The notes under the pieces are model-generated. The model searched no databases. It saw nothing but the letters and a program-made list of their open reading frames with translations, and had not been told where the DNA came from. DNA of 42,300 nucleotides from a virus. Both the position numbers and the translations under genes were made by a program. The stretch's first letter is position 1. Each line of letters begins with the position of its first letter. The DNA lies in IMG/VR virus record IMGVR_UViG_3300047494_000051, positions 1-42,300 of that record; one strand, written 5' to 3'. Below, in pieces: positions 6,746 to 24,247 of this stretch.

Positions 6746-6904
6746 TCAGCAGTTTCGCGGGCCGGGGGGCTGCTGATAGGCCGGCGTGTCCTTGCGCGTC
6801 GTTTCGCTGTTCACGCTCGCCTTTGGCAGGTTGCGAGTGGATGCGTCATCGGGCGCAACCTTGCCGTTGCCGCCCATGCCCTTGTCGGCGCCCACATCCT
6901 TCAT
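6746..6904 (-). CDS. Small hydrophilic protein (52 aa)
   Basis: This short gene has an ATG at 6904 that overlaps the stop of the lipoprotein gene (ATGA), and it ends two bases before the GNAT start. The product is Lys/Gly/Asp-rich, ends in Pro/Gln, and is probably disordered. Tight packing on both sides is the main evidence that it is translated. No recognised motif; function unknown. Confidence 0.55.
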   Translation of the reverse strand: MKDVGADKGMGGNGKVAPDDASTRNLPKASVNSETTRKDTPAYQQPPGPRNC

Positions 6905-7278
6905 GGCTTGGCTCCTGTGGTGGTGGAGGGCACCACCTTGATGACGGGCGCGCCCTGCTGCGTGATCGCCAGCGCCTGCGCGTTGATCTGGCCCACCAGC
7001 GTGGTGATGGCGGCGAGGTCTAGCGTTGAGGCGTTCACGGCGGCCTGGAGTTTGGCCACGTAGCTATCGCTCACCAGCAGCGCGGCGGAGATGGCCGGCG
7101 CCAGCGCAGGGTCTGCGGCTTCGGCGGCGAGCGCGATGCCCTTGGCGATGCCGTAGTCGGTCAGCGCGGTGTTTGCAGCGCTGATGGCGGTCTGCGCATC
7201 TCCAAGGACTGTGGCCTGTTGCGTGGCAGAACAGGCCGTCAGCGCGAAGATGGGCAGAGCGATGATGATCCTACGCAT
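6901..7278 (-). CDS. Small phage lipoprotein
   Basis: This 125-residue protein has a clear lipoprotein signal: a basic start (MRRIII), a hydrophobic core, and the lipobox LTAC at about 13-16. The mature part is Ala-rich and helical and ends in Thr/Gly/Lys/Pro. It lies beside two or three small membrane proteins in a lysis-like cluster, so an outer-membrane spanin role is possible. It is longer and less Pro-rich than most Rz1 proteins. An alternative is a surface-exclusion lipoprotein. AAGGAAA precedes the ATG. Confidence 0.65.
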   Translation of the reverse strand: MRRIIIALPIFALTACSATQQATVLGDAQTAISAANTALTDYGIAKGIALAAEAADPALAPAISAALLVSDSYVAKLQAAVNASTLDLAAITTLVGQINAQALAITQQGAPVIKVVPSTTTGAKP

Positions 7279-7600: not shown

Positions 7601-7951
7601 CTAGAATGGGTCTTCAAGCTTAGGAACGGGTGGTATCGTCAAATGCTCGCCATATTTCGCAGCGATGTTGCACAGATCATGACGGTAATCGTGCGCCCAT
7701 TCATCCACCCGCCGCGCGCGGCGCTCCCATAACTCCGCACGCGCCTCCGCTTCATTAATTCTGCGTTCGTAGCGGTCCAGCGTTGACTCCAGGCTGCGGT
7801 CGAGATTGGCGCGGACCTCATCGCCGCCGGCGGCCGACTTGCTTTTGCTCAGATCCTTGGAGTTCTTGAAAATAGCCCACGCCATTACGCTCAGCAGTCC
7901 AAAACCATTTGCTACCGTCGTCCAAAGACCAGCCGATGGATTATCCGCCAC
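7601..7951 (-). CDS. Membrane protein with coiled coil, possible inner-membrane spanin
   Basis: This 116-residue protein has one N-terminal membrane segment (about 10-28) followed by a long charged helix with heptad-like spacing (about 45-95). This is the topology of Rz-type i-spanins, which link to an outer-membrane lipoprotein during lysis. A lipoprotein gene lies two genes downstream. The start is GTG at 7951, one base from the stop of the upstream gene. A stretch of 85 bases to the next gene holds no clear signal. Role inferred. Confidence 0.55.
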   Translation of the reverse strand: MADNPSAGLWTTVANGFGLLSVMAWAIFKNSKDLSKSKSAAGGDEVRANLDRSLESTLDRYERRINEAEARAELWERRARRVDEWAHDYRHDLCNIAAKYGEHLTIPPVPKLEDPF

Positions 7952-7952
7952 G

Positions 7953-8345
7953 TCAAATTAAGCCCCCGTGCTTCCGAATGAATTTCCAAACGGACACCAA
8001 ATTCAGCGCCGCGCTCACCCCATAAAATGCCATGGCGCCATGTGGTCCGCCGATAGAAAATATCATTGCCCAGCCCATTTCTCCGGACGTGAGCGCAGCC
8101 AAAATCGCAGCCCCGCCGCGGATCGGTCGCACGTCCACCGTGACTGCAAAAAGCTGGAACAGGCCAACGGCCAGGCACACGTTTTCCCAGAACATCGCCG
8201 GCGCAAGCTGAAGCAGCGGCCCGAAGCTGTTGTAGCTGAGGCCGTCCTGCATCGTGGAATTGATGATGAACCAGCCGATCAGCGAAATTGCGCTGCCGAC
8301 TTCGGCCCATCGCGTGTCGCTCAACCAAATCGTCCGAAGGGTCAT
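7953..8345 (-). CDS. Polytopic membrane protein, possible holin
   Basis: I chose the ATG at 8345, one base after the upstream stop (TGAGATG). Longer in-frame starts lie in the out-of-phase part of the fibre gene. The 130-residue product has about four hydrophobic segments (near 14-30, 42-72, 78-96 and 98-120), ending KFIRKHGG. A small polytopic membrane protein ahead of spanin-like genes fits a holin, but the family is not recognised. Confidence 0.6.
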   Translation of the reverse strand: MTLRTIWLSDTRWAEVGSAISLIGWFIINSTMQDGLSYNSFGPLLQLAPAMFWENVCLAVGLFQLFAVTVDVRPIRGGAAILAALTSGEMGWAMIFSIGGPHGAMAFYGVSAALNLVSVWKFIRKHGGLI

Positions 8346-8346
8346 C

Positions 8347-9468
8347 TCACCACTCCAGCAACACATATCCGGGGCCGCCGGCGCCGCCGCTGGTTCCTCC
8401 TCCGGCCCCACCGGACCCGCCGCCGCCGTATTCGCCTGGGGTGATGCCATTGTTCGTGGTTGCTCCTCCCGATGACAGGGATGGCGCGCCGGCACCCAAC
8501 AGGCACCCGCCGCCGCTGCCGCTTGCGAGCGCAGGCGGGCCGGAGAAGTAGAACCCTTGGGTTCCAGGCAGTCCGCCAATGCCACCAGCCGCGCCGCCGG
8601 TAGATGGCGAGGCGTTGTTGCCGTAGGCGCCGCCGGCCCCGCCGGCACAACTCGCCAGGGTCACTAGGGTGGCCGAGATGATGGAGCTTGTTCCGCCCGT
8701 CCCGCCCGGCCCAGCGCTTCCTCCAGTTCCGGCCAACCCGACATTGATCGTATAGACGGCGCCTGGGGTCACATTGATCAGGAGTTTCTTGTACGCAGCC
8801 GCGCCGCCCCCACCACCCCCGCCGGCATCGGTGCTTGCGGCACATGCGCCGCCGCCGCCGCCGCCGCCGCACATCGTGGCATAGACGTTCGTCACTCCGG
8901 CCGGCGCCGTCCATGTGGCCGTGGAAAGGAACTGCGCAAACCGCGCCGTTAGTGCTGCAGCAACCGGCGGCGGCGTGTTCACCAGCACAAAAGCATTGGC
9001 CGCCTGCGAAAAGCTGACCATGCAGAACTGGCCCGCGCCGAGGGTTTGAGTGTTGGAATATCCCGGCGAGTCGTAAAGCGACAACGCGGACAAACCGGAT
9101 CCAGAATTGGTCACGTCCTTGATCAGGATCGCAGTGGAGACGCCGCTCAGGCCGCTCGGCATGAAAAAACAGTAGGTGGTCCCGGTCTGATACGTTTGGA
9201 CCTGGGGGGAGCCTGCGGAGCCTGTCAGATTGACCGTCTGGCCGCTGATGCTGGCCGTGCAAGGAATGATGCTGCCCACGGCCAATCCAAGGGCTTGGAG
9301 CGCCGCCTGCGCCGTGGTGGAGCCAGTGCCGCCATTGGCGATGGTGACCGGCGTCGTGGGGATCGTCAGGCCGTTCAGATAGGAGACCAGCGCCGCAAAG
9401 TTTGCGTTCACCTGAGCGGATGCTGCCACCTGGCCCGGCGAAAACTGATATGGAACGCCTGCGGTCAT
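8347..9468 (-). CDS. Tail fibre-like protein with Gly-rich C-terminal domain
   Basis: This 373-residue protein starts at ATG 9468. The N-terminal region has the repeat-like NGGTGSTTAQAALQALG (about 47-63), typical of phage fibre and tail-tip proteins. After about residue 190 it becomes a Gly-rich domain opened by TWTAPAGVTNVYATMCGGG, the pattern of the Gly-rich fibre domain in which polyglycine helices bundle. It ends in VLLEW. It probably binds receptor at the tail tip. Low-complexity DNA here produces spurious frames on both strands. Confidence 0.7.
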   Translation of the reverse strand: MTAGVPYQFSPGQVAASAQVNANFAALVSYLNGLTIPTTPVTIANGGTGSTTAQAALQALGLAVGSIIPCTASISGQTVNLTGSAGSPQVQTYQTGTTYCFFMPSGLSGVSTAILIKDVTNSGSGLSALSLYDSPGYSNTQTLGAGQFCMVSFSQAANAFVLVNTPPPVAAALTARFAQFLSTATWTAPAGVTNVYATMCGGGGGGGACAASTDAGGGGGGGAAAYKKLLINVTPGAVYTINVGLAGTGGSAGPGGTGGTSSIISATLVTLASCAGGAGGAYGNNASPSTGGAAGGIGGLPGTQGFYFSGPPALASGSGGGCLLGAGAPSLSSGGATTNNGITPGEYGGGGSGGAGGGTSGGAGGPGYVLLEW

Positions 9469-9469
9469 G

Positions 9470-11239
9470 TCACTGGACTCCCGAGGGATACTGCTGGACG
9501 TAGCCCAGCACCTGATACTGCAGATACGTGTTGCTGATCCTGAAGCCCTGGCTGGACGTGCCGCTCGCCTGGAAGAAGCCTTGCTTGAACACCACCGGGC
9601 CGGGCCACGCGATCTCGTAAGGCGATAGCGGCTGGGAAGTGCCATCCCACACGCCGACATCCCAGATCATCGTATCCCACACCGACACAAGGCCGCTCGG
9701 CGTGACGGAAGCCGATTCGAGCAGGGTGCCGCTGCTGTCGTTGAACGTCACCGCCACGGCTGGGCTGGCGCCGATGAACGCCATCTCCAGCGTCGTCAGG
9801 ATCATCGCATTTTCAGCGATCTCCCCGTTATCTGGCCCGAGCGAGGTTTGATAGTTCCACAGCATCGGGTTGCCGAATTCGGTGAAAGTGTCGGTGGAGC
9901 CTGGGATCACGTTGGACTGGAACAGCCCCTGGAACGGCGCCTTGGGCGTGCCCACAAGGAACGTTTGCGTGTTGCTGACGATGCCGGTGGCCGAATGGTT
10001 CCGTACGGCCAGAGTATGAGTTCCGACGCCCACCGCCGGGGCCTGCCCGGACCAAAGTGAGCCGCGCGCCGAGGCGGCAGCGAAACTGCCGACGCCCGAG
10101 GTCGTCCATGTGCCGCTGTCGAGCTGGTAGTCCAGCGCGGCGGCCGGCGTGTCCTCGTAATCAATCCCACCGATGGAGAACGGGATGTTTGCCACCACTC
10201 CCGCAATAGTCCCGAGTGTGATGCTGCTCGGGGTGCCCGCGATCGAGTAGGTCACGGAGTTGCTGACGATGGCCGGCACCGCCGTGTTGCGCACGGTGAG
10301 CGTGTGCGTTCCAGAGTCGGCAGCTGGGCCGAGGCCGGTCCAGGATCCGCCGTTTGAGGTCGCCGCGGCGAAGCTTGCAACGCCAGTGGTCCACGCGCCG
10401 GTGTCCAACATGTAATCTAGACCGGTGGCGTTCGGCGACTCCCCGTCCAGGCCGCCGATCGAGGGCGCGACGAGGCGAGTTGCAGTGATGGTGCCCAGCG
10501 TGATGTAGACCGGAGGGGTTGCGTCAAAGACCTGTACGTTGGTTATGACCACAGCAGGGTTCATGCCGCCTGCTGGACCGCCGTTGCTGGCGACAAATTC
10601 CACGCACGGGTTCGCGCCGGAATTATTGAAAGGTAAGCCAGTTCCAGAAGCATTTATAGGCGCGTCTTGATAGACGAGTGCGCCATTTATTGTAAGGACG
10701 GAATAGACTTTGTTTGCGACAGAATCGTAATTTATTGCAAGCTGCACTGACCCGACTTGTGGGACTGCGATTTGCACCGGTCCAACCGGCGTATCGTATA
10801 TCGCGGCTCCAACGGAGTATGCGTTGGTAATATCTCGGTTCATCCGCATGTCGTAGAGAACGTTCCCCTGGGAGCCTGCGGAAGGGGAAATAGATACGCT
10901 AAATGTCGGCGTCGTCAGCGGTGCGCTTATATTATAATTCCAAGAGAAAAGCACATGCGAAGACGTGCCTGCCGGCAATCCTTTGTAGCTTTGCCGAGCA
11001 TACGAATAGTGATATTCGAAATCCGATATAGGCGGCATATGCATTGCGTTGTTATACTGAAAACCGACATTTATTCCGGTGTCGGTTGCGGCCCACGGCG
11101 GCGTTGCATAGGTCTGATCTACTTCCGTGTATGAAAACCACTGTCCGCCACCAGGCCCGCCGTTGCTTGCCCCGCCGTAAGGCGGAGACACGCCTTGAAA
11201 GAACGGCACAATGGTCAATTGCGTAAGTTGCCCCGTCAT
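9470..11239 (-). CDS. Tail or fibre protein with two tandem Ig-like domains
   Basis: This 589-residue protein starts at ATG 11239, overlapping the upstream stop (ATGA). The N-terminal 250 residues look like a lectin-type beta sandwich. Two homologous segments of about 90 residues follow (roughly 255-345 and 346-435). Each starts ITLGTI, contains an IGG motif and a LDY-LD-G-WTT core, and ends in THTL-VRN. These are probably beta-sandwich modules used as spacers. The last part is a separate beta-rich domain. Probably part of the adhesion device. Confidence 0.65.
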   Translation of the reverse strand: MTGQLTQLTIVPFFQGVSPPYGGASNGGPGGGQWFSYTEVDQTYATPPWAATDTGINVGFQYNNAMHMPPISDFEYHYSYARQSYKGLPAGTSSHVLFSWNYNISAPLTTPTFSVSISPSAGSQGNVLYDMRMNRDITNAYSVGAAIYDTPVGPVQIAVPQVGSVQLAINYDSVANKVYSVLTINGALVYQDAPINASGTGLPFNNSGANPCVEFVASNGGPAGGMNPAVVITNVQVFDATPPVYITLGTITATRLVAPSIGGLDGESPNATGLDYMLDTGAWTTGVASFAAATSNGGSWTGLGPAADSGTHTLTVRNTAVPAIVSNSVTYSIAGTPSSITLGTIAGVVANIPFSIGGIDYEDTPAAALDYQLDSGTWTTSGVGSFAAASARGSLWSGQAPAVGVGTHTLAVRNHSATGIVSNTQTFLVGTPKAPFQGLFQSNVIPGSTDTFTEFGNPMLWNYQTSLGPDNGEIAENAMILTTLEMAFIGASPAVAVTFNDSSGTLLESASVTPSGLVSVWDTMIWDVGVWDGTSQPLSPYEIAWPGPVVFKQGFFQASGTSSQGFRISNTYLQYQVLGYVQQYPSGVQ

Positions 11240-12390
11240 GAAGGCAGCGCCATGGAACAGATGAAGGTGTTCTTGTAGGGCAGCATGAAGACGGACGGGA
11301 TCGTGTGCGGCCCGCTCCACGCGCCCAAGCTGAAGTTATACCAATATTCGATTGTCGATTGTAGAACCGCGGACTTCTGCTGTACCGCTACGCGCAACGT
11401 TTGCATGTTGAAGGCCGCACACATGCGAGACGGATACACCGCATTTTGGAACGGCAGGCAAATGCCCATCCCATAGTTCCCGATAGGATCGCTGACGTTT
11501 GAGGAAAAGTCGATGATGCGCACGCCGTCCGGAGCGACAAAAGCCAGGCCCTTCGGAGTGGCCGTCACGGTGTTTGGCGCGAGCGTGCCGGTGGCCACAT
11601 TAAGGGCGTTTGCCGCCCAGGGTGCAGGAACTCCGGTGTAGTCGCCGGTGACTTGGTAAATGTTTGATATGCCCTTGAACACCATGAGCGACTGGATGAT
11701 GCCGCCTTGGACGTTGTTCAGCGGGAGCCCTTCAAGCGCGGTGATGGGCGTGCTGTCTCCGAAGGTGAGAACTTGGCCGGCATTTGTCTGCTGAAGCGGA
11801 AAGAACACATCGCTCGCCTGCACCGCGTTGCCCACCGCGTAATAGGCCCGGCCGCCGTAGATTGAGACCGCGGTCGGAGGAGCGATCAGCAGGTTTCCGG
11901 TGGTATTTCCGGAGTGCCAAACCGGTGCAGACGGCTTGGTTAGATCGAACCACCCGAAATAGCCGTTTGCGGGCCCCTGGAAGCCAGGATGCGTCACCAG
12001 GACATAGGCGCCGATGGTCGCCATCGTCGGCACCGTCCAGTCGCCCACAACCGGCTGGGTGTAGGGCAGGTTGCTACCGGTCACGCCGGAGGGAGTGGAG
12101 AAGGTCTGGGTAAGCAGGTTGTAGATGAATGGCTGATCAAAGCCGTTCTGCGAGACCATGCCATAAAGCACGTCGCCCAGGATCAGGAACACCGTCACCG
12201 CGCCGTAGGTCGAGCTCAGGCCCTTGATCTGGATGGACGCGGGCCGCGGCACGAACACAGATTTGGTGGTGGGATCCGGGATTAGGTTCTGCAGCGCGAC
12301 CATGCTGTTCAGGCCGGTGTTGCTGCTGTCGAGCGTGTCAGTGACGCCGGAGGGCTTCCAGTTCAGGACCTTGCTGTTTCGGATGGCCAC
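11236..12390 (-). CDS. Beta-propeller-like tail protein (P22 gp10 or T7 gp12-like role)
   Basis: This 384-residue protein lies directly downstream of the adaptor gene. It has several repeated strands ending in aromatic/Gly patterns (for example YGAVTVFLILGDVLYGMV, GAYVLVTHPGFQG and YGGRAYYAVGN). In P22-like and T7-like phages the corresponding position holds the tail hub or nozzle, built on a propeller. Starts at GTG 12390. The assignment rests on gene order and strand pattern. Confidence 0.6.
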   Translation of the reverse strand: MAIRNSKVLNWKPSGVTDTLDSSNTGLNSMVALQNLIPDPTTKSVFVPRPASIQIKGLSSTYGAVTVFLILGDVLYGMVSQNGFDQPFIYNLLTQTFSTPSGVTGSNLPYTQPVVGDWTVPTMATIGAYVLVTHPGFQGPANGYFGWFDLTKPSAPVWHSGNTTGNLLIAPPTAVSIYGGRAYYAVGNAVQASDVFFPLQQTNAGQVLTFGDSTPITALEGLPLNNVQGGIIQSLMVFKGISNIYQVTGDYTGVPAPWAANALNVATGTLAPNTVTATPKGLAFVAPDGVRIIDFSSNVSDPIGNYGMGICLPFQNAVYPSRMCAAFNMQTLRVAVQQKSAVLQSTIEYWYNFSLGAWSGPHTIPSVFMLPYKNTFICSMALPS

Positions 12391-12393
12391 TGC

Positions 12394-13116
12394 TCACCAC
12401 CCGATGGATTTTGTGTTTTTTAGCTGCCCGTAATTGCTGCCGAAGCGCCGGCTGTCCAGCGTCACGCGCTTGGCCCGACCCTCGTCATCGTTTGTCAGCT
12501 TCATGAAGTTTTCGAGCTTGGTGGCGGCCAGCGCCTCGAAATCCGCCATCCGCGTGTCATCGGTCAGCAGGCACAGCTTCGCGGTGAGCGCGAAGATGAG
12601 ATATTCCTGGTTCGGAAACCAGGGAATTTCGGTGGCGAAGCTGGCGGTGGGAATGTCGGGCAGCAGGCGCCGGTATTGCACGGACATCGGCACCGCCAGG
12701 CTGGACGGCGGCCACAGCCAAAGGATGGCCGGCAGAGGCGGTTCCTGGCCGAGCGGGGACGTGTCCGTGGCGAAGAAGATCGGGAACGACGCAATGCCGG
12801 CCTGCTGCACCTGCATGTAATATTCGACCAGATCGATCGATTTCATGATGTAGGGCACGCCGTTGTAGACGTAGCGGACACCGTCCCGTTCGGCGCGCTT
12901 GTAGTCCGCCGGCAACAGATACGGCCCGGAACCGTTTCCCGAGCCGTTGTCCGCCACCATCTGAAAAGTCGTGATGCCCTGGCACAGGTCGAGGTCCTGG
13001 GTGTCGGCCAGGTCCGCCAGGATGACGTTCAGGAGCTGCTGCGCCTGCGTTATCCAGCCGGGGACCTTGGCTGCCGTTGTGGCAAGGCTAACGATCTGCG
13101 CGGCTGTGAGGGCCAT
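12394..13116 (-). CDS. Head-tail adaptor (P22 gp4-like)
   Basis: This 240-residue protein begins with a helical N-terminus (MALTAAQIVSLATTAAKVPG), followed by YLLPADYKRAERDGVRYVYNG and a beta-rich centre. It ends with helices containing LTAKLCLLTDDTRMADFEALAATK. This matches the adaptor that sits below the portal in P22-type phages. The start at 13116 lies within the end of the upstream gene (29-base overlap). The downstream neighbour is a propeller-like tail protein. Confidence 0.65.
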   Translation of the reverse strand: MALTAAQIVSLATTAAKVPGWITQAQQLLNVILADLADTQDLDLCQGITTFQMVADNGSGNGSGPYLLPADYKRAERDGVRYVYNGVPYIMKSIDLVEYYMQVQQAGIASFPIFFATDTSPLGQEPPLPAILWLWPPSSLAVPMSVQYRRLLPDIPTASFATEIPWFPNQEYLIFALTAKLCLLTDDTRMADFEALAATKLENFMKLTNDDEGRAKRVTLDSRRFGSNYGQLKNTKSIGW

Positions 13117-14701: not shown

Positions 14702-16057
14702 TTAGCCGAACGTCGGCGTGAAGTTGGAGGCGGATTCGATGCGCGCGCCGAACTGCTGGTTCGTGAACATCACGCCATAGAACTTCTTCCAGCCGACGAT
14801 CCGCAGCTGGTTCAGCGGATCGGATTTGTCCGCCGTGTCCAGATACGTCATCCGGACGTTGTCCAGGTCGATCATCGAGTAATAATCCCGGCCAAACACG
14901 TATGTCGCGAAGACGGTGATGCCAGTCGCGGGCGCGGCCGGCGGAACCTGCTGCGGCCCAATGCCGGTAAGCGTGACGGTGGCGCCTGGATTGATCTGCG
15001 TGGCAACGCCGGTATACGGACCGGAGGTCGGGCCCTGCGGCGAGGTTGCGAGGTTGGCCAGCGCGCTGGCGTTGGTGCCGATGTAGACGCTGTATGTGAA
15101 GCCCGCGACGTTCGGCACAGTCAGGGTGAGCGCGGTGTTAGCGCCGCCGGGCGCGGTGCCGCCGTCCACCTGATAGATCTGGCTTTCATACTGTCTCTGG
15201 CCGTCGGAGCCGGTTACCTGGGTGAAATACGTCGTGCCTGCGGTGAGCGTGCCGCCGGTCGTGCCAGCCGCGCCGGTGACCGCGGCCAGACCGTTCCAGA
15301 ACGGCACCATGTTGGACATGCAGAAGATCAGGCTGGACCACTCGCCGATCTCGAAATTGTAAAGGCGGTTTATGTCGGAATAGGACCATGCCGTTTGGAC
15401 CGTGCCGTTCTCGCGGAAATCGCTGGCAACCAGCGGATGGATGATGGAGACATAATGCGCGTGGGTGCGCGGGTTGGCCGAGGCGTTTGAGCCGCCGGTC
15501 TTCACATCCACCCGGGCGTCCGTCTCGTCGTCGCCGCCGAAGCGCGGCGCTCCAATGGTCATTAGGGAGGCCACGGTGCGGTTGACGGTGTGCGGGTCCA
15601 GCACGTCGCCGGCCACGATCGCGGAGCGCGCGCCGCGCTGGTTTACGAAATTGACCTGCGCACCGCCGGAAAGCGTGAGGTAGGTGTTGCGCTCATCCGA
15701 CTCCGCGATCTGGAGCGCGGTCAGGCGGATTGCCTGCTGGAATGTCGGATGGAAGATCGTCATTTCGGCAACGTCGGTGACGGTGACCTTGTCGCCCCAC
15801 TGTTGGCAGATGCCGGAGACCTGGCTGATCGTCATCGTCTCGCCAACTGGCGGGACGCCTTCGGACAGAGGCGCAAATGGGACGGTCAGGCGGTTGTAGC
15901 GGGTCGCGGTGTAGGTGGTGCCCATGCCTTTCGGCAATTCGGCGCGTGTCGCAAACTGATAGGCGCACAGCTGCCGCCGGGCGAGAGGAAGAACTTTCTT
16001 CTCAATGTAGTTGATCCGGTCTGCTGCGAACTGACCCGCGGTGTTGTTGCCTGGCAT
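14702..16057 (-). CDS. Major capsid protein (N4-gp56-like)
   Basis: This 451-residue protein has features of N4-gp56-type capsid proteins: an N-terminal arm (about 1-45), a strand-rich region (GTTYTATRYNRLTV), the conserved block HAHYVSIIHPLVASDFR (about 204-220), and EIGEWSSLIFCMSNMVPFW (about 239-257). The last third contains FGRDYYSMIDLD and ends with GVMFTNQQFGARIESASNF. Between about residues 260 and 380 lies a Gly/Thr-rich beta segment that looks like an inserted Ig-like or FN3-like domain. The ATG at 16057 has GGAGG upstream. It directly follows the scaffold gene. Confidence 0.8.
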   Translation of the reverse strand: MPGNNTAGQFAADRINYIEKKVLPLARRQLCAYQFATRAELPKGMGTTYTATRYNRLTVPFAPLSEGVPPVGETMTISQVSGICQQWGDKVTVTDVAEMTIFHPTFQQAIRLTALQIAESDERNTYLTLSGGAQVNFVNQRGARSAIVAGDVLDPHTVNRTVASLMTIGAPRFGGDDETDARVDVKTGGSNASANPRTHAHYVSIIHPLVASDFRENGTVQTAWSYSDINRLYNFEIGEWSSLIFCMSNMVPFWNGLAAVTGAAGTTGGTLTAGTTYFTQVTGSDGQRQYESQIYQVDGGTAPGGANTALTLTVPNVAGFTYSVYIGTNASALANLATSPQGPTSGPYTGVATQINPGATVTLTGIGPQQVPPAAPATGITVFATYVFGRDYYSMIDLDNVRMTYLDTADKSDPLNQLRIVGWKKFYGVMFTNQQFGARIESASNFTPTFG

Positions 16058-16095
16058 ACTTTAGTCCTCCGTTGTGATACGGAGGCTCCCCCGCA

Positions 16096-16872
16096 TCAGA
16101 AAACCACGCCCTTCAGTCTCGACTCGATGGCGGATAGATCGTCGCCGCCCCTTGCCGTCCGGTCCGCCCTCGTATCCCCGCCGGCGCCTCGATTTGCCGG
16201 AACCGTGTTGCCCGCCACCCGGCCCGCTGCTGCTGGCCTCTGCTTCGCCGTGGCCTTGCTGGCCTTGGCGAGAACTGCCTGGCCCACGGCATAAGCCAGG
16301 GCCGTTTCGCGCTTCACCTGAAACCCCAGCGCGCCTTGCTCCGTCACTAAGCGCTCCACATCGCTTGCGAATTTCTTCGCCAGAGGGTCCCGCGCCTGCC
16401 GAGCTTCGAAGCTCATCCTGTCCACCTGGTCAGCTTGCTGGCGCTGGAAGTGCGCCATCTGCTGCATCGTCGCCTGCTGCTGCTTGTTCAGCAGGTATTG
16501 GAACTGCTCGTGCGGCTGCATCATCTCCAGCCGCGCCGCTTCTTCGGCTTGCATCCTGGCCAGATCGGCAGGACTTGGGCCTTGCGACTGAGGCTGCCGG
16601 AGGGCCGTGAGCTGTCTTTCAAGCTCGGCCGCGCGTTCCTTGGCCTCTTTCGCTTCCGCTGTTGCGCGCCGCACCCGCTCGTTAGAGCGAGAGGGCGCTA
16701 CATCTTCTTGGCGTGCTTGGCCTTGGTCGATTTCGGCATTTTGCGCGCCTTCTCCGTCATCGCCTCCTTGCCCTTCGCCATCATTCCGGTCGGTTTCTTC
16801 TTGGATTTCGGCTTCATCATGGGAGTCGTCCTCCAAAAGCGAATCGAGTTCGTCGGCGAGTTCAGGGGGCAT
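16096..16872 (-). CDS. Capsid scaffolding protein
   Basis: This 258-residue protein lies just upstream of the major capsid gene and has the expected composition: an acidic, disordered N-terminus (about 1-55), a long charged coiled coil (about 65-170, with RATAEAKEAKERAAELERQL), and a basic C-terminus that could contact the capsid protein. GGAG precedes the ATG at 16872. A second, basic frame overlaps its acidic part (16698-16820). Expression is probably driven by a strong promoter at 16938-16968. Confidence 0.75.
   Translation of the reverse strand: MPPELADELDSLLEDDSHDEAEIQEETDRNDGEGQGGDDGEGAQNAEIDQGQARQEDVAPSRSNERVRRATAEAKEAKERAAELERQLTALRQPQSQGPSPADLARMQAEEAARLEMMQPHEQFQYLLNKQQQATMQQMAHFQRQQADQVDRMSFEARQARDPLAKKFASDVERLVTEQGALGFQVKRETALAYAVGQAVLAKASKATAKQRPAAAGRVAGNTVPANRGAGGDTRADRTARGGDDLSAIESRLKGVVF
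16698..16820 (-). CDS. Possible overprinted basic peptide (40 aa) inside the scaffold gene
   Basis: In a second frame over the acidic part of the scaffold gene there is an ORF of 40 residues, almost half Lys, with repeated Met-Ala-Lys-like steps (MMKPKSKKKP at its start, KAKHAKKM at its end). A full GGAGG (16830-16834) lies nine bases upstream of its first ATG. A basic shadow under acidic codons is expected by chance, since GAN codons shifted by one read as AN-rich codons. The ribosome site is therefore the only specific support. Confidence 0.35.
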   Translation of the reverse strand: MMKPKSKKKPTGMMAKGKEAMTEKARKMPKSTKAKHAKKM

Positions 16873-16937
16873 CTTGGCTCCACGGGATACGTGACCCGGA
16901 TCGATACGGCCCGGTTACGGGGGCTAGGCGCTTTTTC

Positions 16938-16968
16938 AGCATAGGGGATGGATTACCTAGATTGTCAA
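16938..16968 (-). promoter_or_regulatory. Promoter for the scaffold-capsid-tail genes (minus strand)
   Basis: Read on the minus strand, a perfect TTGACA (16963-16968) is followed either after 17 bases by CCTATG (16940-16945) or after 19 bases by TATGCT (16938-16943). It lies about 65 bases upstream of the scaffold start, where the plus-strand cassette separates the scaffold from the portal. It would let the head and tail genes be transcribed despite the inverted cassette. On the plus strand the same bases read TTGTCA, so a divergent promoter for the cassette may overlap it. I found no clear -10 for that direction. Confidence 0.5.
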
Positions 16969-17015
16969 ATGTTTTTCCTATACGGATTGGGGGCGAAAAC
17001 GCTCGGAGCCACTAA

Positions 17016-17489
17016 ATGCGCCAGTTTTGGGCCGGCATCCTCTGCCTTGCGGGTATTTATTCCTTGTCAGGCATCCCGGCTGCCCAGGGTGCTGGGCCTC
17101 CGTATGCGACCTACCAGACGCCCAACGGCACCACACAGGCCGTGACGATCCTTTGTCCCGGTTCGGGCACGGCGGCGGCCAACTGCGCTTTCGGCAGCGG
17201 CGGCACTACGGCGGTGACGTCCACCCCATCAGGGACAACGACTTCGGCCACGCCGAACACTTTCACCACGGCGGCAGCGGCAAACGGATCGCGCAAGGGG
17301 TGTAGCGTCCAGAACACCGGGACCGGGACCCTCTACGTCTACTTCGGAACCACCGGCAGCACGGCTGCATCCAACCAGGTCGCACCCGGAGGCGCCATAA
17401 GCTGCAATGCGCCGGGCATCGTGCTGACAGATGCAATCCAGGTCGCCGACACACTCGCATCGCAACCCTATGTTTTGGTGCTGCAATAA
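17016..17489 (+). CDS. Small exported protein of unknown function (157 aa)
   Basis: A signal peptide (about 1-26, MRQFWAGILCLAGIYS... ending AAQGA) is followed by a beta-rich, Gly/Thr/Ala-rich domain with four cysteines (for example ILCPG, NCAFG, GCSVQ, SCNAP). GGAG lies about nine bases upstream of the ATG. The next gene starts within its stop (TAATG). It is first in a three-gene plus-strand cassette inside the minus-strand late operon. Export is well supported; function unknown. Confidence 0.65.
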   Translation: MRQFWAGILCLAGIYSLSGIPAAQGAGPPYATYQTPNGTTQAVTILCPGSGTAAANCAFGSGGTTAVTSTPSGTTTSATPNTFTTAAAANGSRKGCSVQNTGTGTLYVYFGTTGSTAASNQVAPGGAISCNAPGIVLTDAIQVADTLASQPYVLVLQ

Positions 17490-19204
17490 TGGGCAATCGA
17501 AATAGGTTGCTGCTTGGAACAGCGCTTTCTCTGGTTTTCGTCCTTCCTGGATACGGACAAAGCTTCTACCCGCCGCCTGGACTGACGGCGGGCGGCCCGG
17601 TGGACACCAGCACGGTGACGCTCCCAAGCGCGCCAAACCCGCTGCCTCTTACGCAATCCTTTGTGGATGCGCGCGGCCTGAACATCCGCGCATATCATTC
17701 TGTCGGCGACGGAGCGGACTACTCGCCCGCGCTTTCGCTTGCCTACCAGACGATGAACACGAACTATCTTGTGGGCGGCCTTTACACGCCCGTCTACATT
17801 CCGCCCGGCGCCAATTGGACGCTGAACACGCCGCTGACCACGCTGCCCGCGGCGAGCGTCCCGGCTGCTCTTGTCGGCAACGGCCTTCGTCATTCCTGGC
17901 TGACGCTCGGCGTCAACTTCACGGGCCCGGTCTATCGATGCTCGCAAACGCCTCTGGTGTTTACAACCCCGACGATTTTGCCCACGGCCACCAGCTCGGG
18001 CTGCCGAGTGCAGGATCTTTCAATCACCGGCAACACCACGTCTAGCGGTCAACAAGGCCTGATGTTCTATGATGCAGTGGACGGCGCCCTGGTATCCAAC
18101 GTCAGTATTTACGACCTGCCAGGGCCGTGCCTTTCTGCGGGCACTGTTTTGAACAAAACAAACGCATTTTTCAGGGAAAGTCTCATTGATGGATTGACCT
18201 GCTACAATACTGGATCCGCGGGAACTATACCAACCCTTTACGTGTCATCCACAGGCACGCAGGATGCGAGCAACCAAGACCTTATCAGGCACTTTCGGTC
18301 ATTCAGCTCTGCGGCTGACGGTGTAGTAGTTGAAAACGCTAATCTGACATCGCCAGTGCGCCAAATCACATTCCTTGACGCAAAAGTGGAAAACTCGGCA
18401 GGGAATAACTTTCGAATCGGATCGTCCAGCCTGACCGGGTCAATCACCACCATTGATTGTATTTCGTGCGCTGGCATCAGCCCTTCTTCGGGGAATAGCA
18501 ATCTTCTGGTGACGGCTGTCGGAACTGCTTCTGCCGTTGCTAACTCTTCCTTTACCGACTTTTTGAGTTTGGCCGGCGCCGGCACAGGCGGCGGGGTAAA
18601 CATTCAATACGGCAAAAACCTGACCGTCAGCATGGTGGCGAACACGACCACAGGCACCCAGGTCACCGTTGGGTGCGGCATCAACGGACCTTTGACGATT
18701 ACGGGTCAGGGCGACGAAAGCACTTACACCACCTCTGTGTGTGGATCTCTCACAGCAGGCCTTCTCAGGTTTGGTTCTGCCGCAACCATCAGCCCTAAGA
18801 CAGGATTTGTGCCAACTGCGGCCTTTGGAGTTCCTGGAACATCTTCGATAAGCACCACAGGAACCGCCCATACCGCCATGCTTGGCGGAGGCATCAGCTT
18901 GGTATCCGAAAGCGCGACTATCAACGTAGTTTCGGTTGGAACAGCGACTGGAAATCTGTCGATAGGCCTGCCAGCCGGCGCTACTGCAAACCAAGAATTT
19001 GCCTCTTGCATCCCGTCCCAGGTGGTCAGCAGCACGGGCAGCTTGCCAGGAACGCCTAGCAACGGAACAGGAATCCAGGTTGCTGCGGGCAGCGGCCTTG
19101 CGACGCCTATAGCTTTGAAAACTACTGGCCTGTTCACGACATGGACCGCGGCCAACACGGCAGTTGGCACCTACACGATTAACTTCTCTTGCGTCATATT
19201 CTGA
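17489..19204 (+). CDS. Exported beta-helix protein, tailspike-like
   Basis: This 571-residue protein starts with a clear signal peptide (about 1-24, core LLLGTALSLVFVLPGYG, then QSFYPPP). A segment with the look of a pectate-lyase-type tailspike head follows (about 50-75, DARGLNIRAYHSVGDGAD). The centre (about 120-420) is repetitive with short strands, as in right-handed beta-helices. Virion tailspikes do not normally carry signal peptides, so this may act outside the cell, for example on capsule or surface polysaccharide. No catalytic residues could be assigned. It is translationally coupled to the gene before it. Confidence 0.6.
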   Translation: MGNRNRLLLGTALSLVFVLPGYGQSFYPPPGLTAGGPVDTSTVTLPSAPNPLPLTQSFVDARGLNIRAYHSVGDGADYSPALSLAYQTMNTNYLVGGLYTPVYIPPGANWTLNTPLTTLPAASVPAALVGNGLRHSWLTLGVNFTGPVYRCSQTPLVFTTPTILPTATSSGCRVQDLSITGNTTSSGQQGLMFYDAVDGALVSNVSIYDLPGPCLSAGTVLNKTNAFFRESLIDGLTCYNTGSAGTIPTLYVSSTGTQDASNQDLIRHFRSFSSAADGVVVENANLTSPVRQITFLDAKVENSAGNNFRIGSSSLTGSITTIDCISCAGISPSSGNSNLLVTAVGTASAVANSSFTDFLSLAGAGTGGGVNIQYGKNLTVSMVANTTTGTQVTVGCGINGPLTITGQGDESTYTTSVCGSLTAGLLRFGSAATISPKTGFVPTAAFGVPGTSSISTTGTAHTAMLGGGISLVSESATINVVSVGTATGNLSIGLPAGATANQEFASCIPSQVVSSTGSLPGTPSNGTGIQVAAGSGLATPIALKTTGLFTTWTAANTAVGTYTINFSCVIF

Positions 19205-19216
19205 AAGGGCTTTTCA

Positions 19217-19651
19217 ATGCTCACCATTCCCCGCGGCGTCCAGAACAACAATCCGCTGAACATCGACTACAACACGGCCAACCATTGGAACGGGCAGATC
19301 CCCGTGTCCTACCTCGGCACCGAGACCCGGTTCTGCGTGTTTGAATCGCCAGCGGCGGGGATCCGCGCGGCCATCGTGAATTTCCAGCATTACGTCGAGC
19401 ATGACGGCTGCCGGACTTGGGGCGACATCATTGCGCGGCAGGCGCCTTCCGGCCCGGAAAATGACACCGAGGCCTACAAGGCCACCGTGCATGAGGCCAC
19501 CGGGTTCGACATGGAAGCGCCGGCCGCGGTGAGGGACTGGGCGGCGATGAAGGCATTCGTCGCCGGCTGCGTGATCGTCGAGTGCGGCTCGGTGGAATAC
19601 AGCGATGCCGTGTGGGAGAAGGTCCGCACGGGAGTGGTGATGACGGCCTAA
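19217..19651 (+). CDS. P5-like muralytic enzyme (endolysin candidate)
   Basis: This 144-residue protein has the pattern RG-NNNPLNI (about 6-16), then GTETRFCVFESPAAGIRAA (about 35-52) and a region containing IIARQAPSGPENDTEAY (about 72-88). This is the signature of the phage 'structural protein P5' lytic transglycosylase-like family. No signal peptide is visible. It is the only peptidoglycan hydrolase I see in the window, so it may be the endolysin. If so, it sits on the plus strand away from the spanin and holin candidates. Its stop overlaps that of the opposite-strand gene. Confidence 0.7.
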   Translation: MLTIPRGVQNNNPLNIDYNTANHWNGQIPVSYLGTETRFCVFESPAAGIRAAIVNFQHYVEHDGCRTWGDIIARQAPSGPENDTEAYKATVHEATGFDMEAPAAVRDWAAMKAFVAGCVIVECGSVEYSDAVWEKVRTGVVMTA

Positions 19652-19818
19652 GCCGGTCGTATGTCCGTCGCAGGAGCGACAGTTTGCTCTTGCGCGCGAT
19701 TGGCCACAGCATCCGCTAACTGGCTTTCCAGTTTTAAAGAATCAATCAACAGAAGATTATATATCCTCTGCCATTGACTTTTCGGAAGTGTAATTGTGAT
19801 TTCTGAATCATTTATCAT
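19648..19818 (-). CDS. Small protein downstream of portal (56 aa)
   Basis: The ATG at 19818 directly abuts the portal stop (TAGATG), with no spacer. The product starts MINDSEITITLPKSQWQRIY and is helical afterwards (about 15-50), so it may be a small DNA- or protein-binding factor. The last 4 bases overlap the end of the convergent lysin gene (CTAA shared between TAG and TAA). This stretch is AT-richer than its surroundings. Function unknown. Confidence 0.65.
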   Translation of the reverse strand: MINDSEITITLPKSQWQRIYNLLLIDSLKLESQLADAVANRAQEQTVAPATDIRPA

Positions 19819-21918
19819 CTAACCAGCCTTCCTCGGCATTGCGGTCGGCATCTGATCGCGATGGATGGCGCCGGGCGGGTTCTGCCCTCCGGTCGCCTGT
19901 CCAGGCTGCGCACCCGGACGAGGGCCGCCGCCCTGCCCTGGCTGTCCGCCGCCCTGCATCTGCGCCGCGTGCGCTTGGTTCTTGGCCGCCATCTGCTGCT
20001 GGTGCTTCCACATATGAGCCTGGATCACCTGCCGCGCCTGCGGTGACGCGCCCTGCATCGCCTGCTGATGGACCTGTAGATGCTCCCGATCATCGTCGGC
20101 AGCCGACACCGGCAGATCGATCGCGTTCAGCAGCAGCGAGTTCTCCTCGTCCGGCGGCATGCCGATCATGTCGGAAATCGGTTTGAAAATCTTCGGCCCC
20201 AGGTGAGGCCCGTACGTCGCCTCCACGAACCGCTCGATCAGAGGAACCATATCCAGCGTCCGGCCCTGCATCATCTGCGGCGGCACCTTCGTCAGCACGT
20301 TCATGCCGGCGATCTGCATCTGCATCTGCTGCGCCGTCCGGGCCTGCTCAATCCCATACCAGTGGAAGGTCATCCGGTTCCCCTCCTGCTGCGGCGGAAC
20401 CTCCTGCATGCCGCTTTTCATGCCCTCGCGGCCGAACGCCTTGACCCAGATCGCATCCTGCCGGAACTGCGCATCGTAGAGCATGAAGCGCCGGATGATC
20501 GGCGTGAGGATCCCGGACTCGAACGGCACTATCACGTCTGCCGTCGTCAGGATGTCCACCTGCTGCTCCGACGCCACCTCGGCCTGGCTGGGCTTCTTCG
20601 CGGCGCTGCGCTGCGCCACCATCGACGGGTTCACGCCCAGCGTCTGCATCACCTGCTGCGTCAGCGCCGCCACAAGGCCCAGCGCGTCCTTCCAGAGCGG
20701 TGGGAACTCGGCGAATTTCGTGCTGTTCGGATCGACCTCCCACACGGCGGCCAGATCGATCACCATGGACCCCACCCGCGGGTTGTTCAGCGGGTTGGTC
20801 ATGATGATCGGCAGCAGGGAATAGCTGGCGCTGTCCGCCCCCTGGTTCAGGAAGTCGTTCGCCAGATATTGCAGCTTGGCGACGGGATCAATCTTGCTGA
20901 TGCCCTTGAACGAGCCGCCGATCTTGTCCACCGGCTCGGAAATCAGCGGGCAAAGGTCACACCAGAACGGGTTTAGCCGGCAGGACAGGATCAGGTCATC
21001 CCCGCCGAAATAGGTCCGCGTTAGGCGCCGATTGCCGTCAACCTCCAGCACCTTCCACGTCTCGTAGACCAGCGCATATTTGCCTCCGCTTTTCACGCCG
21101 GCCGCGTCCACATGCTCCTTCTTCATGTCCTTGCGGTTGGTGTCCTTTCCGCCGGCCTCCAGCCGCGCAATCAGCTCGTCGCCCTGCGCCTGGCTAATCT
21201 CCTCGGCTTTGATCTTGGCCTTGATCATGCCCTTGGACCACCGCCGCAGGATCGTCGCTGACCCGGCATACTTGAACAGCGCCTCATCCACGCTGTCGGC
21301 AATCAGCGGCGTAACCATCACGTCCGCGTCCGGAAGGATTTCCACCACCGGGCCAAAATCCAGGACCTTCTCCTCGGTCACGTCGTCCATCATGTCGTCG
21401 TCCGACACCACCGAAGCGTCGAGCTCCACACCCTCTACCTCGGGCCCCTTCCGCGTCCGCGTGGTGACAAACCGGGAATGCTCCCACCAATCGACATATA
21501 CGTTCCACTGGCCTTCGATGTCGCCCTGGGTGAACAACGCCGGAATCACCGAGACCCGCATTTTCGACTTTTCCACGTAATGGTCGATCAGCGCGATGAG
21601 CGCGTCCGGAAGCTCGTCGCTGTCGGTGGTGACTTCCACGTAGCGGCCGGATTGGGGGAATACCTGATTTACAAAACGAGTTTTGCGAGCTTGCACCGCA
21701 TCGTGGATAATGGGGACGTAAGCTTGGCTATTCCCATTATAAAATTGATTCTCGTTTAGCACGCAGTTGTAACAGTCCCAGTAGTCCAGGGCATCGTTGA
21801 TACGCGTTGACGCCTCGCCGAACTGCTTCTCGATCCCCTCATAGACCTTCAGCAGATCGTCCTTGATGGACTTCCGCTTTGAAAGCTCGGTCTTCCGGGT
21901 GATCTCGGCCATCGTCAT
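19819..21918 (-). CDS. Portal protein (P22-like)
   Basis: This 699-residue protein has the size and layout of P22-type portals. The N-terminus is helical, and about residues 40-100 contain DYWDCYNCVLNENQFYNGNSQAYVP and AVQARKTRFVNQVFP. A wing-like region follows (about 150-330). A conserved middle contains GISKIDPVAKLQYLANDFLNQ, and a stem region has PPLWKDALGLVAALTQQVMQTLGVNPSM. The C-terminus is a Gln/Pro/Gly-rich barrel-type tail (about 615-699). It follows the terminase, as expected. The start overlaps that of the 107-residue gene upstream (ATGA). Confidence 0.8.
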   Translation of the reverse strand: MTMAEITRKTELSKRKSIKDDLLKVYEGIEKQFGEASTRINDALDYWDCYNCVLNENQFYNGNSQAYVPIIHDAVQARKTRFVNQVFPQSGRYVEVTTDSDELPDALIALIDHYVEKSKMRVSVIPALFTQGDIEGQWNVYVDWWEHSRFVTTRTRKGPEVEGVELDASVVSDDDMMDDVTEEKVLDFGPVVEILPDADVMVTPLIADSVDEALFKYAGSATILRRWSKGMIKAKIKAEEISQAQGDELIARLEAGGKDTNRKDMKKEHVDAAGVKSGGKYALVYETWKVLEVDGNRRLTRTYFGGDDLILSCRLNPFWCDLCPLISEPVDKIGGSFKGISKIDPVAKLQYLANDFLNQGADSASYSLLPIIMTNPLNNPRVGSMVIDLAAVWEVDPNSTKFAEFPPLWKDALGLVAALTQQVMQTLGVNPSMVAQRSAAKKPSQAEVASEQQVDILTTADVIVPFESGILTPIIRRFMLYDAQFRQDAIWVKAFGREGMKSGMQEVPPQQEGNRMTFHWYGIEQARTAQQMQMQIAGMNVLTKVPPQMMQGRTLDMVPLIERFVEATYGPHLGPKIFKPISDMIGMPPDEENSLLLNAIDLPVSAADDDREHLQVHQQAMQGASPQARQVIQAHMWKHQQQMAAKNQAHAAQMQGGGQPGQGGGPRPGAQPGQATGGQNPPGAIHRDQMPTAMPRKAG

Positions 21919-22246: not shown

Positions 22247-24247
22247 CTATTTCAGCGCGGACCTGTACCGCCGCCCGTCGTTCGTCGTCTTGAAGTGCGC
22301 CATGTCGTCCTCGCCCTCGGCAAACGCCACCGTCCCGCAAAAACTCTCAAGGCCCTCCAGCAGCGTCTTGTATATGCCCTCGCTTGCCTCCGGAGCCAGA
22401 ACATTCCCAGGCAGAACCCTTCTCGAATATCCGCCCACCATCCCGTTCAAAACACGCCGCGCCGACGATGACACCTGGAACGCAGGCTCGCCCCGGATCC
22501 GCCGCTGCAGCATTGCCTTGCATTCGATCCGACCGCGGTCCAGCGGCGCCCCGATAACCGGCCGCCCGTTCGCCCGCTGAATCGCCGCGGCCAGCCCCAC
22601 GTTTCGGTATTTGTCGAAGTGCATCGGCGGCAGCACGATCTTCAGAGCGCCCCCGGTCAGCCTGCCGGCCTCGCGCATGATGTCGCCCACCACATCCCCA
22701 GGCAGCCCCTCCACACACCAGTCCGCCAGCACCCGCACCACCCCGCCGATGTCCTGCGCCAGCGCCGCCGTCACTCGGCTCCCGTCCGCATTCATCGCCA
22801 GCCAGGTCGGCTGCCACCGGATCATCTCCTGGCCCTCAAACACGCTCGCCGGCGAGAAATCCCCGAAGATCGGCTCCCCTGGCCGCATCAAATTCGCATA
22901 GGCCAACGCGTTCGGCGCGTCGATCTTCCCGCGGGGGAACGACAGTAGCTGCGCCGTCGCAGTCGAAAATGCCGCCTCGCTTCCGGCAAAAAGAACCAGC
23001 TTCGCGTGGAAATACGCCTGCAATCCCCTGATGAACGTCAGTTTGTCCCGCGGCGCCTTCATACCCCGCAGCGGGATTGATCCACGCTTGACCATCGCCT
23101 CGCGAATCGGTTGCATCGCCCATTGCTCGAGCCCGTCCCGCTCAAACCCGACCTCCACTGGAGAATACGTCTCGCTCAACCGAAACAGCAGATCCACAAT
23201 CTTGTCCGGTTGGAGGAAGTCCCCGCCCATCTCCCAGATCACCAACTCGCCGCCGGCCGCCCAGCTCCACACCGCCCAGCCAGTCATCGCCGACGTCTTC
23301 GCCGTCGTCCGCGCCGGATCCACCATCGCATAAACCGCCTGCCAGGTCCGCTGCCGCTGCGCGTCATACCGAAACTGATCCGCGGTAAACACCTTTTCCG
23401 ACGGCGCCTCCGCCACCAGCATGTACTCCTGCATGAACGACGCGTGCTCCCCCTGCGCCGTGTAGTTCGCCTCCATCTTTTCCACGTCCGCCAAGGAATG
23501 CTTCTCCGGCCACGTCGCCACCGCCCGCCCGCCCTCATCGAAATACCGAATCGGATACGTCCGGTGCAGCCATTCCCCCGACCGCGCCAGGCTACGCAGC
23601 AGGCACATATCCGCCAGCGGCGTCCCCAGCATCCGGATCGGCGTCCGCAAAGGATCCTGCAACGCCGGCAAAAACTCCGACGCAAACCAGCGCGAAGTCT
23701 CCTTCACCGCCTCCGGATTCTTAACCCACTCGTCATCCTCCAGGTCATCGATCAGCACAAAGTCCGGCCGCGTCTCCTCCTTCGCCCCACGCAAACTCTG
23801 CCGCGCCCCAAAAGCCTCAATAATCACCCCATTTGACAGCAGAACCTTCCCCTCATTCCAAACAGCCCCCCGCAAATCCCCAAAAGCCGCCATGATATAC
23901 GGGTTGTTGTCGATCTCCCGCTTAATCCCCGACAGCCGCTGCGCCGCCCTCGAGTACGTATTCCCAAGCACAATCCCGTATTTGAATTCCCGCAGCGCGG
24001 ACCGAAGCACCATGCACTCCTCCGCCAGCGAACTCTTCGCCCCACCCCGGAACGCCTCCACCAAAACCCTCGGATGCGGACCATGCATGTCCCGGATAAT
24101 GTCCGCATGCATCGCTGGCGTCCGCAAAGGATGACGCCGCGCAAACAACGTCTCATGCGCCCGAACCCGGTCCGCCATAATGTCCGCCAGCAGCTTCAAC
24201 CGCGTCTCGCGGATCTCCGCCTCAACCAAACCAGCTTGGCGCGCCAC
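22247..24247 (-). CDS. terL: Terminase large subunit
   Basis: This 666-residue packaging motor has a Walker A-type motif (EAFRGGAKSS, about 64-73, Lys71), Walker B (FVLIDDLEDDE, about 163-173), and RNase-H-like nuclease residues (AMVDPAR, about 307-313, and VEVGFERDGLEQW, about 364-376). It cuts and translocates DNA into the procapsid. The start is GTG at 24247, sharing one base with the preceding stop. It is a late gene on the minus strand, downstream of a KTSC gene. Confidence 0.85.
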   Translation of the reverse strand: MARQAGLVEAEIRETRLKLLADIMADRVRAHETLFARRHPLRTPAMHADIIRDMHGPHPRVLVEAFRGGAKSSLAEECMVLRSALREFKYGIVLGNTYSRAAQRLSGIKREIDNNPYIMAAFGDLRGAVWNEGKVLLSNGVIIEAFGARQSLRGAKEETRPDFVLIDDLEDDEWVKNPEAVKETSRWFASEFLPALQDPLRTPIRMLGTPLADMCLLRSLARSGEWLHRTYPIRYFDEGGRAVATWPEKHSLADVEKMEANYTAQGEHASFMQEYMLVAEAPSEKVFTADQFRYDAQRQRTWQAVYAMVDPARTTAKTSAMTGWAVWSWAAGGELVIWEMGGDFLQPDKIVDLLFRLSETYSPVEVGFERDGLEQWAMQPIREAMVKRGSIPLRGMKAPRDKLTFIRGLQAYFHAKLVLFAGSEAAFSTATAQLLSFPRGKIDAPNALAYANLMRPGEPIFGDFSPASVFEGQEMIRWQPTWLAMNADGSRVTAALAQDIGGVVRVLADWCVEGLPGDVVGDIMREAGRLTGGALKIVLPPMHFDKYRNVGLAAAIQRANGRPVIGAPLDRGRIECKAMLQRRIRGEPAFQVSSSARRVLNGMVGGYSRRVLPGNVLAPEASEGIYKTLLEGLESFCGTVAFAEGEDDMAHFKTTNDGRRYRSALK

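Follow-up and report, generated by a model that had tools for sequence, protein, structure and literature searches.

The IMG/VR virus record IMGVR_UViG_3300047494_000051 was analysed as one window, by which we mean the whole stretch of 42,300 bases, and its gene content is podovirus-like. Because it encodes an integrase (PF00589 match, 8e-11) and an HTH repressor-like ORF, the phage is probably temperate. The late genes, for TerL, portal, scaffold, major capsid, tail proteins, tail fibre and internal virion proteins, lie on the minus strand, and the ORF coordinates agree with the initial annotation in placing three plus-strand genes, encoding 157, 571 and 144 aa, between the minus-strand scaffold and portal genes. 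The features are as follows:

8347-9468, minus: the window's own tail fibre, no signal peptide, starting MTAGVPYQFSPGQVAASAQVNANF, with a Gly-rich C-terminal domain
14702-16057, minus: major capsid (major head) protein (PHROGs 8e-34)
16096-16872, minus: scaffold (weak PHROGs match of 0.02, with synteny and 27-42% homologs in relatives)
16873-17015: divergent intergenic region between scaffold and p157, the only place for a promoter of the cassette's own
17016-17489, plus: p157, 157 aa; predicted signal peptide at residues 1-25 (17016-17090); cysteines 47, 57, 96 and 130 in the mature part
17489-19204, plus: p571, 571 aa; predicted signal peptide at residues 1-23 (17489-17557); 10 cysteines in the mature part
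17711-18742, plus: beta-helix core of p571 as modelled, covering protein residues about 75-418 (model residues 52-395)
19217-19651, plus: endolysin-like muramidase-type protein, 144 aa (phrog_873 and PDB 7q47 matches)
19648-19818, minus: 56-aa ORF directly after portal, converging with the lysin gene; no family match in Pfam or PHROGs
19819-21918, minus: portal (PHROGs 8e-7)
22247-24247, minus: TerL (PHROGs 2e-56)

The start of p571 overlaps the stop of p157, and the lysin gene starts 12 bases after p571, behind an AAAGGG element. The 571-codon frame is non-random, as none of 2000 base shuffles stayed open. The 144-aa protein matches the endolysin family phrog_873 (6.5e-35) and the solved endolysin PDB 7q47 (1.3e-10 over residues 3-130); the searches made of the window found no other endolysin. 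Virion-borne copies occur in this family too (phrog_873 head and packaging; 9vvp Gp29), and the lysin here is encoded by an ORF of its own, of 144 aa. The cassette yielded no holin or outer-membrane exporter. Near the tail fibre, a lipoprotein ORF with an LTAC lipobox and hydrophobic ORFs (6901-7278, 7601-7951 and about 7953-8330, minus strand) are candidates for spanin and holin. The homolog of tail tube protein B (9470-12390, minus strand) is divided between two ORFs that overlap (11236-12390 and 9470-11320); in relatives it is one ORF of about 540-900 aa that matches both, and we read the split as a frameshift, either programmed or an error. An ATP-grasp enzyme at 625-1947 on the minus strand resembles PurD (TIGR00877, 4.9e-17, below the cut-off) and is kept at 42-57% in relatives, beside the internal virion protein genes.

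Gene calls were mechanical, and signal peptides were called by a crude, purpose-written scorer of n-, h- and c-regions. It finds Sec-type signal peptides on p157 (MRQFWAGILCLAGIYSLSGIPAAQG, followed by AGPPY) and p571 (MGNRNRLLLGTALSLVFVLPGYG, followed by QSFYP) and none on the 144-aa lysin, which upholds, on the evidence of this heuristic scorer, the earlier suggestion that two of the three proteins are exported. The two scores, 3.87 for p157 and 3.56 for p571, lie below the cut-off of 4.2 applied to relatives, so these signals are weaker than most found there; at that cut-off, none of the 98 core virion proteins taken from relatives passed the same scorer. Neither protein gives any hint of a lipoprotein or outer-membrane anchor. 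The smaller one, p157, has no match in Pfam, PHROGs or NCBIfam and no homolog in cultured phages even at an E value of 1, and its C-terminal half shares 52% identity with an exported protein of 232 aa at locus L051.

Likewise, p571 has no match in Pfam, PHROGs or NCBIfam, and no direct homolog was found by a single-protein pattern scan of viral contigs or by tblastn of cultured phages. It took whole relatives and an alignment of two sequences to reach any homologs: one in relative G015 (944 aa, 30% identity, E 1.4e-27, with a signal peptide) and others at six further loci of other phages, L206-L211. Every relative of p571 found in phage contigs begins with a signal peptide. These homologs carry about 230-280 extra residues between signal peptide and helix that are missing from p571, which has about 30-50 residues there; p571 could still carry a small anchor, or p157 could serve as its adaptor. 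The AF2 model from an eight-sequence alignment reached an overall pLDDT of 57 (39 with the two-sequence alignment), with most 10-residue blocks of the core at about 56-87 and a poor C-terminus. The core models as a right-handed parallel beta-helix, whose best comparisons by VIA-align were the alginate epimerase AlgE6 (Z 29.7), the Sf6 tailspike (Z 28.3 over 317 residues at 3.4 A) and the matrix lyase RbmB (Z 27). The description of the large protein as tailspike-like thus holds at the level of predicted structure; the fold is common to cellular lyases and epimerases as well, and the modelled helix does not distinguish an enzyme from a binder. One p571 homolog is matched by PHROG 32881, filed under moron genes (1e-13). 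A small exported protein with two cysteines next to a p571-like exported protein forms a cassette that recurs between packaging genes of other phages. At L206, L209, L210 and L211 an exported arabinofuranosidase-like protein accompanies this pair, and the trio, in a different kind of phage, adjoins a TerS-like ORF, with a TerL-like ORF on the other side in L210.

A portal search of IMG/VR returned 49 related loci, while the same search of bacterial genomes returned only three MAG contigs, from different phyla (Acetobacteraceae, Burkholderiales, Dehalococcoidia). The comparison of related phages that had been suggested for the cassette points to mobile behaviour: it is missing from the nearest relatives, L002-L004 (52-55%), where the gap is without cargo, and elsewhere the same gap holds other cargo. 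It contains a Phage_lysozyme2 gene in L015, a GH19-type lysozyme gene in L013 and, in L009 and L006, two co-directional genes for signal-bearing proteins, one Gly-rich and belonging to the tail-fibre family phrog_863, the other 404 aa long and beta-helical in appearance. Because relatives carry lysozyme-type genes there, the portal-scaffold gap looks like a lysis or cargo locus. In L044 the gap holds an inverted gene resembling adenylosuccinate synthetase or PurZ (12072-13112, minus strand; NF038379 7e-68 and NF003295 3e-73, both below cut-offs), and it is possible that this phage has a 2-aminoadenine genome. GC3 is 0.615 for p571, 0.728 for p157 and 0.855 for the lysin, against 0.69-0.83 and mostly about 0.80 for core genes; given these unequal values, the cassette may be composite. 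A promoter of its own, which had been proposed, found no support: a consensus scan of 16000-20500 gave no sigma-70-like match, although this consensus may not be that of the host. There is a weak terminator-like site at 19667-19680. Flanking inverted repeats were considered as an explanation of the inversion and rejected, the only one being a 16-nt GC-rich pair that is probably due to chance. Of the proposal that the cassette is a moron module, the absence from L002-L004 and the foreign composition of p571 stand, whereas a role in lysogenic conversion is unsupported and the linkage to an endolysin speaks against it; the coupling to an apparent endolysin points to late or lysis-time expression.

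The reading of relatives, in an analysis where most sequences are metagenomic contigs, covered the whole or the greater part of the contigs of thirteen of them. From 12 of the 13 we listed by hand 39 signal-bearing proteins resembling tail fibres or tailspikes, called with the one scorer and falling into clusters that are not fully independent; most of the relatives have one to six each, and G018 has no signal-bearing fibre on this list. Such proteins follow tail tube protein B in G003, G007, G015, G017, G027 and others, occupy the portal-scaffold gap in G007 as in the window, and stand five in a row between TerL and portal in G012, where nothing fills the usual fibre slot behind tail tube protein B. 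Every fibre-like candidate found in G007, G008, G012 and G015 has a signal peptide, and at L097, L118 and L129 the sole fibre in the usual slot is signal-bearing, its start overlapping the end of the tail gene or lying within 14 nt of it in L097 and L118. An isolated phage, Bradyrhizobium phage ppBdUSDA122-1, has two signal-bearing genes after its tail protein gene, WAX24264 and WAX24263, with even cysteine counts of 6 and 18; WAX24263 is annotated as a tail fiber protein and matches a tail-fibre PHROG (2.8e-28). The premise that virion proteins are not normally exported, from which the initial annotation had argued, is put in doubt by the relatives whose only fibre candidates have signal peptides. 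For the same reason we rejected the idea that all signal-bearing genes are late accessory morons, as several fill the only fibre slot.

The tail regions of these relatives hold other genes worth recording. O-antigen ligase- or polymerase-like genes, opposite to the late-gene strand, lie within the fibre region, or close to it, in G018, G020, G023, G024 and G026 (L056:4510-6000, plus strand; L059:6440-7360; L062:4029-5129; L064:18120-19313; L068:2639-3643); the identity is based on PF04932 (4e-4) for L056 and on sequence similarity judged by eye for the remaining loci. Exported proteins of the AbfB or arabinofuranosidase type recur among the signal-bearing tail-region proteins (L054, L070), with a PF09206 match of 3e-15 for L054:10336-12330. 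In the tail region of G026, the gene at L068:4221-5471 (plus strand) has a Hint- or intein-type-looking start, MQILTPTGYRDITDCVVGDEI, followed by a fibre-like body.

The number of cysteines in the mature part is even in 38 of the 39 listed proteins, and in 40 of 41 when p157 (4) and p571 (10) are added, against a simulated mean of 20.5 even and a maximum of 32 in 20,000 simulations. With one representative per sequence cluster, 19 of 20 are even. Among the 98 core virion proteins encoded by these genomes, 39 are even, 39 odd and 20 without cysteine. An automatic list free of hand selection gave 38 even, 5 odd and 2 without, at least three of the odd cases resembling membrane proteins or unrelated ORFs, not fibres. 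The parity hypothesis arose on the first set, so that loci fetched for other reasons (28 even, 3 odd, 6 without; partly overlapping the first set) come closest to an independent check. Parity is our strongest evidence, indicating that the signal-bearing proteins are probably indeed exported to an oxidising compartment where all cysteines would be paired, and it argues against uncleaved hydrophobic N-termini, a reading that we rejected.

The fibres also allow the signal peptide to be compared with its absence on one and the same domain. Exported fibres share an N-terminal stretch conserved over about 30-75 residues, with bodies that are otherwise unrelated. Such a conserved N-terminus on unrelated bodies is the usual mark of a virion-anchoring domain, and this stretch looks like one. 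An unbiased DNA pattern search for its motif ATQVNxNF hit 83 places in IMG/VR. For 21 clusters, a start codon opens the domain itself, about 13-22 residues ahead of the motif, and the domain lacks a flanking cysteine pair; for another 5, the domain is immediately preceded by a signal peptide, and such a cysteine pair has been acquired in 3 of these 5 (Fisher p 0.004, on small numbers). Among fibres that share the domain, lack a signal peptide and contain cysteine, a hand count gave 6 even and 14 odd. In the window, G003 and G013 the usual fibre slot holds a signal-less version of the domain; the window's fibre (phrog_863 1e-28; PF21722 Gly_rich_2 1.8e-12) appears to be the cytoplasmic counterpart of the exported fibres. 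For G007, G008, G012 and G015 the pattern supports putative exported virion fibres.

For the window itself we tentatively favour, at slightly less than an even chance, an exported, disulfide-bonded free spike or hydrolase that is held in the periplasm and released at lysis. This view starts from what is read in the sequence, namely the ORFs, the heuristically called signal peptides, the even cysteines, the fold class, the lysin and the hotspot. The genes for p157, p571 and the endolysin would have been inserted, inverted, into a cargo or lysis hotspot that separates portal from scaffold; both p157 and p571 would pass the inner membrane through Sec, lose their signals and, once in the periplasm, fold with every cysteine paired. 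As no outer-membrane crossing is visible for p571, periplasmic accumulation would be expected, and since neither protein hints at a lipoprotein or outer-membrane anchor, a Gram-negative host would keep both in the periplasm until lysis. The stockpile would be freed when the co-encoded lysin ends the infection, and released p571 may bind or cut surface polysaccharide, clearing receptors from debris or opening a matrix. We infer a free rather than virion-bound p571 because the window has a separate signal-less fibre, the cassette stands apart from the tail genes, and p571 is without the N-terminal region of its homologs. Against a free role, the exported proteins that occupy the fibre slot of relatives with a conserved N-terminal domain would suit a virion role better.

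The signal-bearing spikes and fibres could accordingly be receptor-binding proteins that mature in the periplasm with disulfides and are mounted on tails after lysis. This is possible but rather doubtful: the uniformly signal-bearing candidates of G007, G008, G012 and G015, the empty slot of G012, the single exported fibre of L097, L118 and L129, the anchoring-like domain that also occurs signal-less in the same slot, and the two successive genes of ppBdUSDA122-1 all argue for it, whereas attachment would have to follow lysis, some contigs may be incomplete, highly divergent fibres could escape detection, and no tailed phage known to export its tail fibres through Sec turned up in the open-licence literature searched. 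As for the window, the separate fibre, the position of the cassette and the short N-terminus of p571 count against it. Another reading places the action of the exported proteins in the periplasm or at the surface of a lysogen or a still-living infected cell, where they might, for example, mask receptors or cut O-antigen or EPS as it is being made. The foreign composition of p571, its inverted orientation, the presence/absence pattern, the integrase, the opposite-strand O-antigen-ligase-like genes and PHROG 32881 are in keeping with such conversion or exclusion, which we nevertheless consider unlikely, as the cassette is linked to an endolysin, which lysogens must not express, the scan gave no sigma-70-like promoter, outer-membrane targeting is lacking and late gene order surrounds most homologs. 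Finally, the fold, the phage context and the simplicity of the scorer might suggest an ordinary tailspike whose hydrophobic N-terminus is not a working signal peptide and which stays in the cytoplasm until assembly. With its predicted signal peptide and even cysteines, p571 departs from that pattern, and canonical n/h/c regions with AxA sites in dozens of proteins, the failure of all 98 core proteins in the same test, near-universal even cysteine numbers and signal peptides joined precisely to the front of a domain whose first residue is otherwise Met make this reading highly improbable. Export and disulfide bonding are common to all serious readings.

Host range is set by tail fibres and spikes, and the usual assumption is that their assembly takes place in the cytoplasm. 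If a class of signal-bearing, even-cysteine fibres exists, some phages would finish their virions outside the cytoplasm or would shed free exported spike-like adhesins or enzymes in large amounts, at lysis or in lysogens. It is conceivable, though we hold it to be doubtful, that in a broad set of tailed phages the receptor-binding fibres and spikes pass through host Sec, are oxidised in the periplasm and join the virion only once lysis has occurred; if true, the last step of virion assembly occurs outside the cytoplasm. As a rule for annotation, fibre genes should be inspected for a signal peptide and cysteine parity, and recombinant depolymerases of this class would need periplasmic rather than cytoplasmic expression.

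Compared with known systems, p571 resembles the Sf6, HK620 and CBA120 tailspikes (TSPs) and Klebsiella depolymerases in its modelled right-handed beta-helix core, its phage origin and the polysaccharide action expected of it. It differs from beta-helix tailspikes in its Sec-type signal peptide and 10 cysteines, an even number, in the position of its gene, which is outside the tail genes, inverted and adjoining an endolysin, and in being without the long N-terminal region of its homologs. Exported phage-encoded surface proteins are familiar from Llp of T5 and other receptor blockers. Lom of lambda is likewise a phage-encoded surface protein of lysogens (PMC12309495). Like p157 and p571, Lom and Llp are exported by the infected cell or lysogen and may affect adsorption, but they are membrane barrels or lipoproteins, whereas p157 and p571 appear soluble and spike-like. 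Endolysins exported by Sec through a signal peptide or SAR, such as Lys44 of fOg44, share with the endolysin-linked cassette the passage of a phage protein through Sec during infection for use at lysis (PMC6116005); in the Lys44 type the lysin itself is exported, whereas here the lysin is signal-less and the spike-like proteins carry the signals. The mosaic adhesive trimer (MAT) fibres of Bdellovibrio, which resemble phage tail fibres and have a conserved domain of about 130 aa after the signal peptide (PMC10769870), are cellular genes of a predatory bacterium for prey recognition and are likened here from their published description; as with the exported phage fibres, they bear a signal peptide and act outside the cytoplasm of the cell that produces them (PMC10769870).
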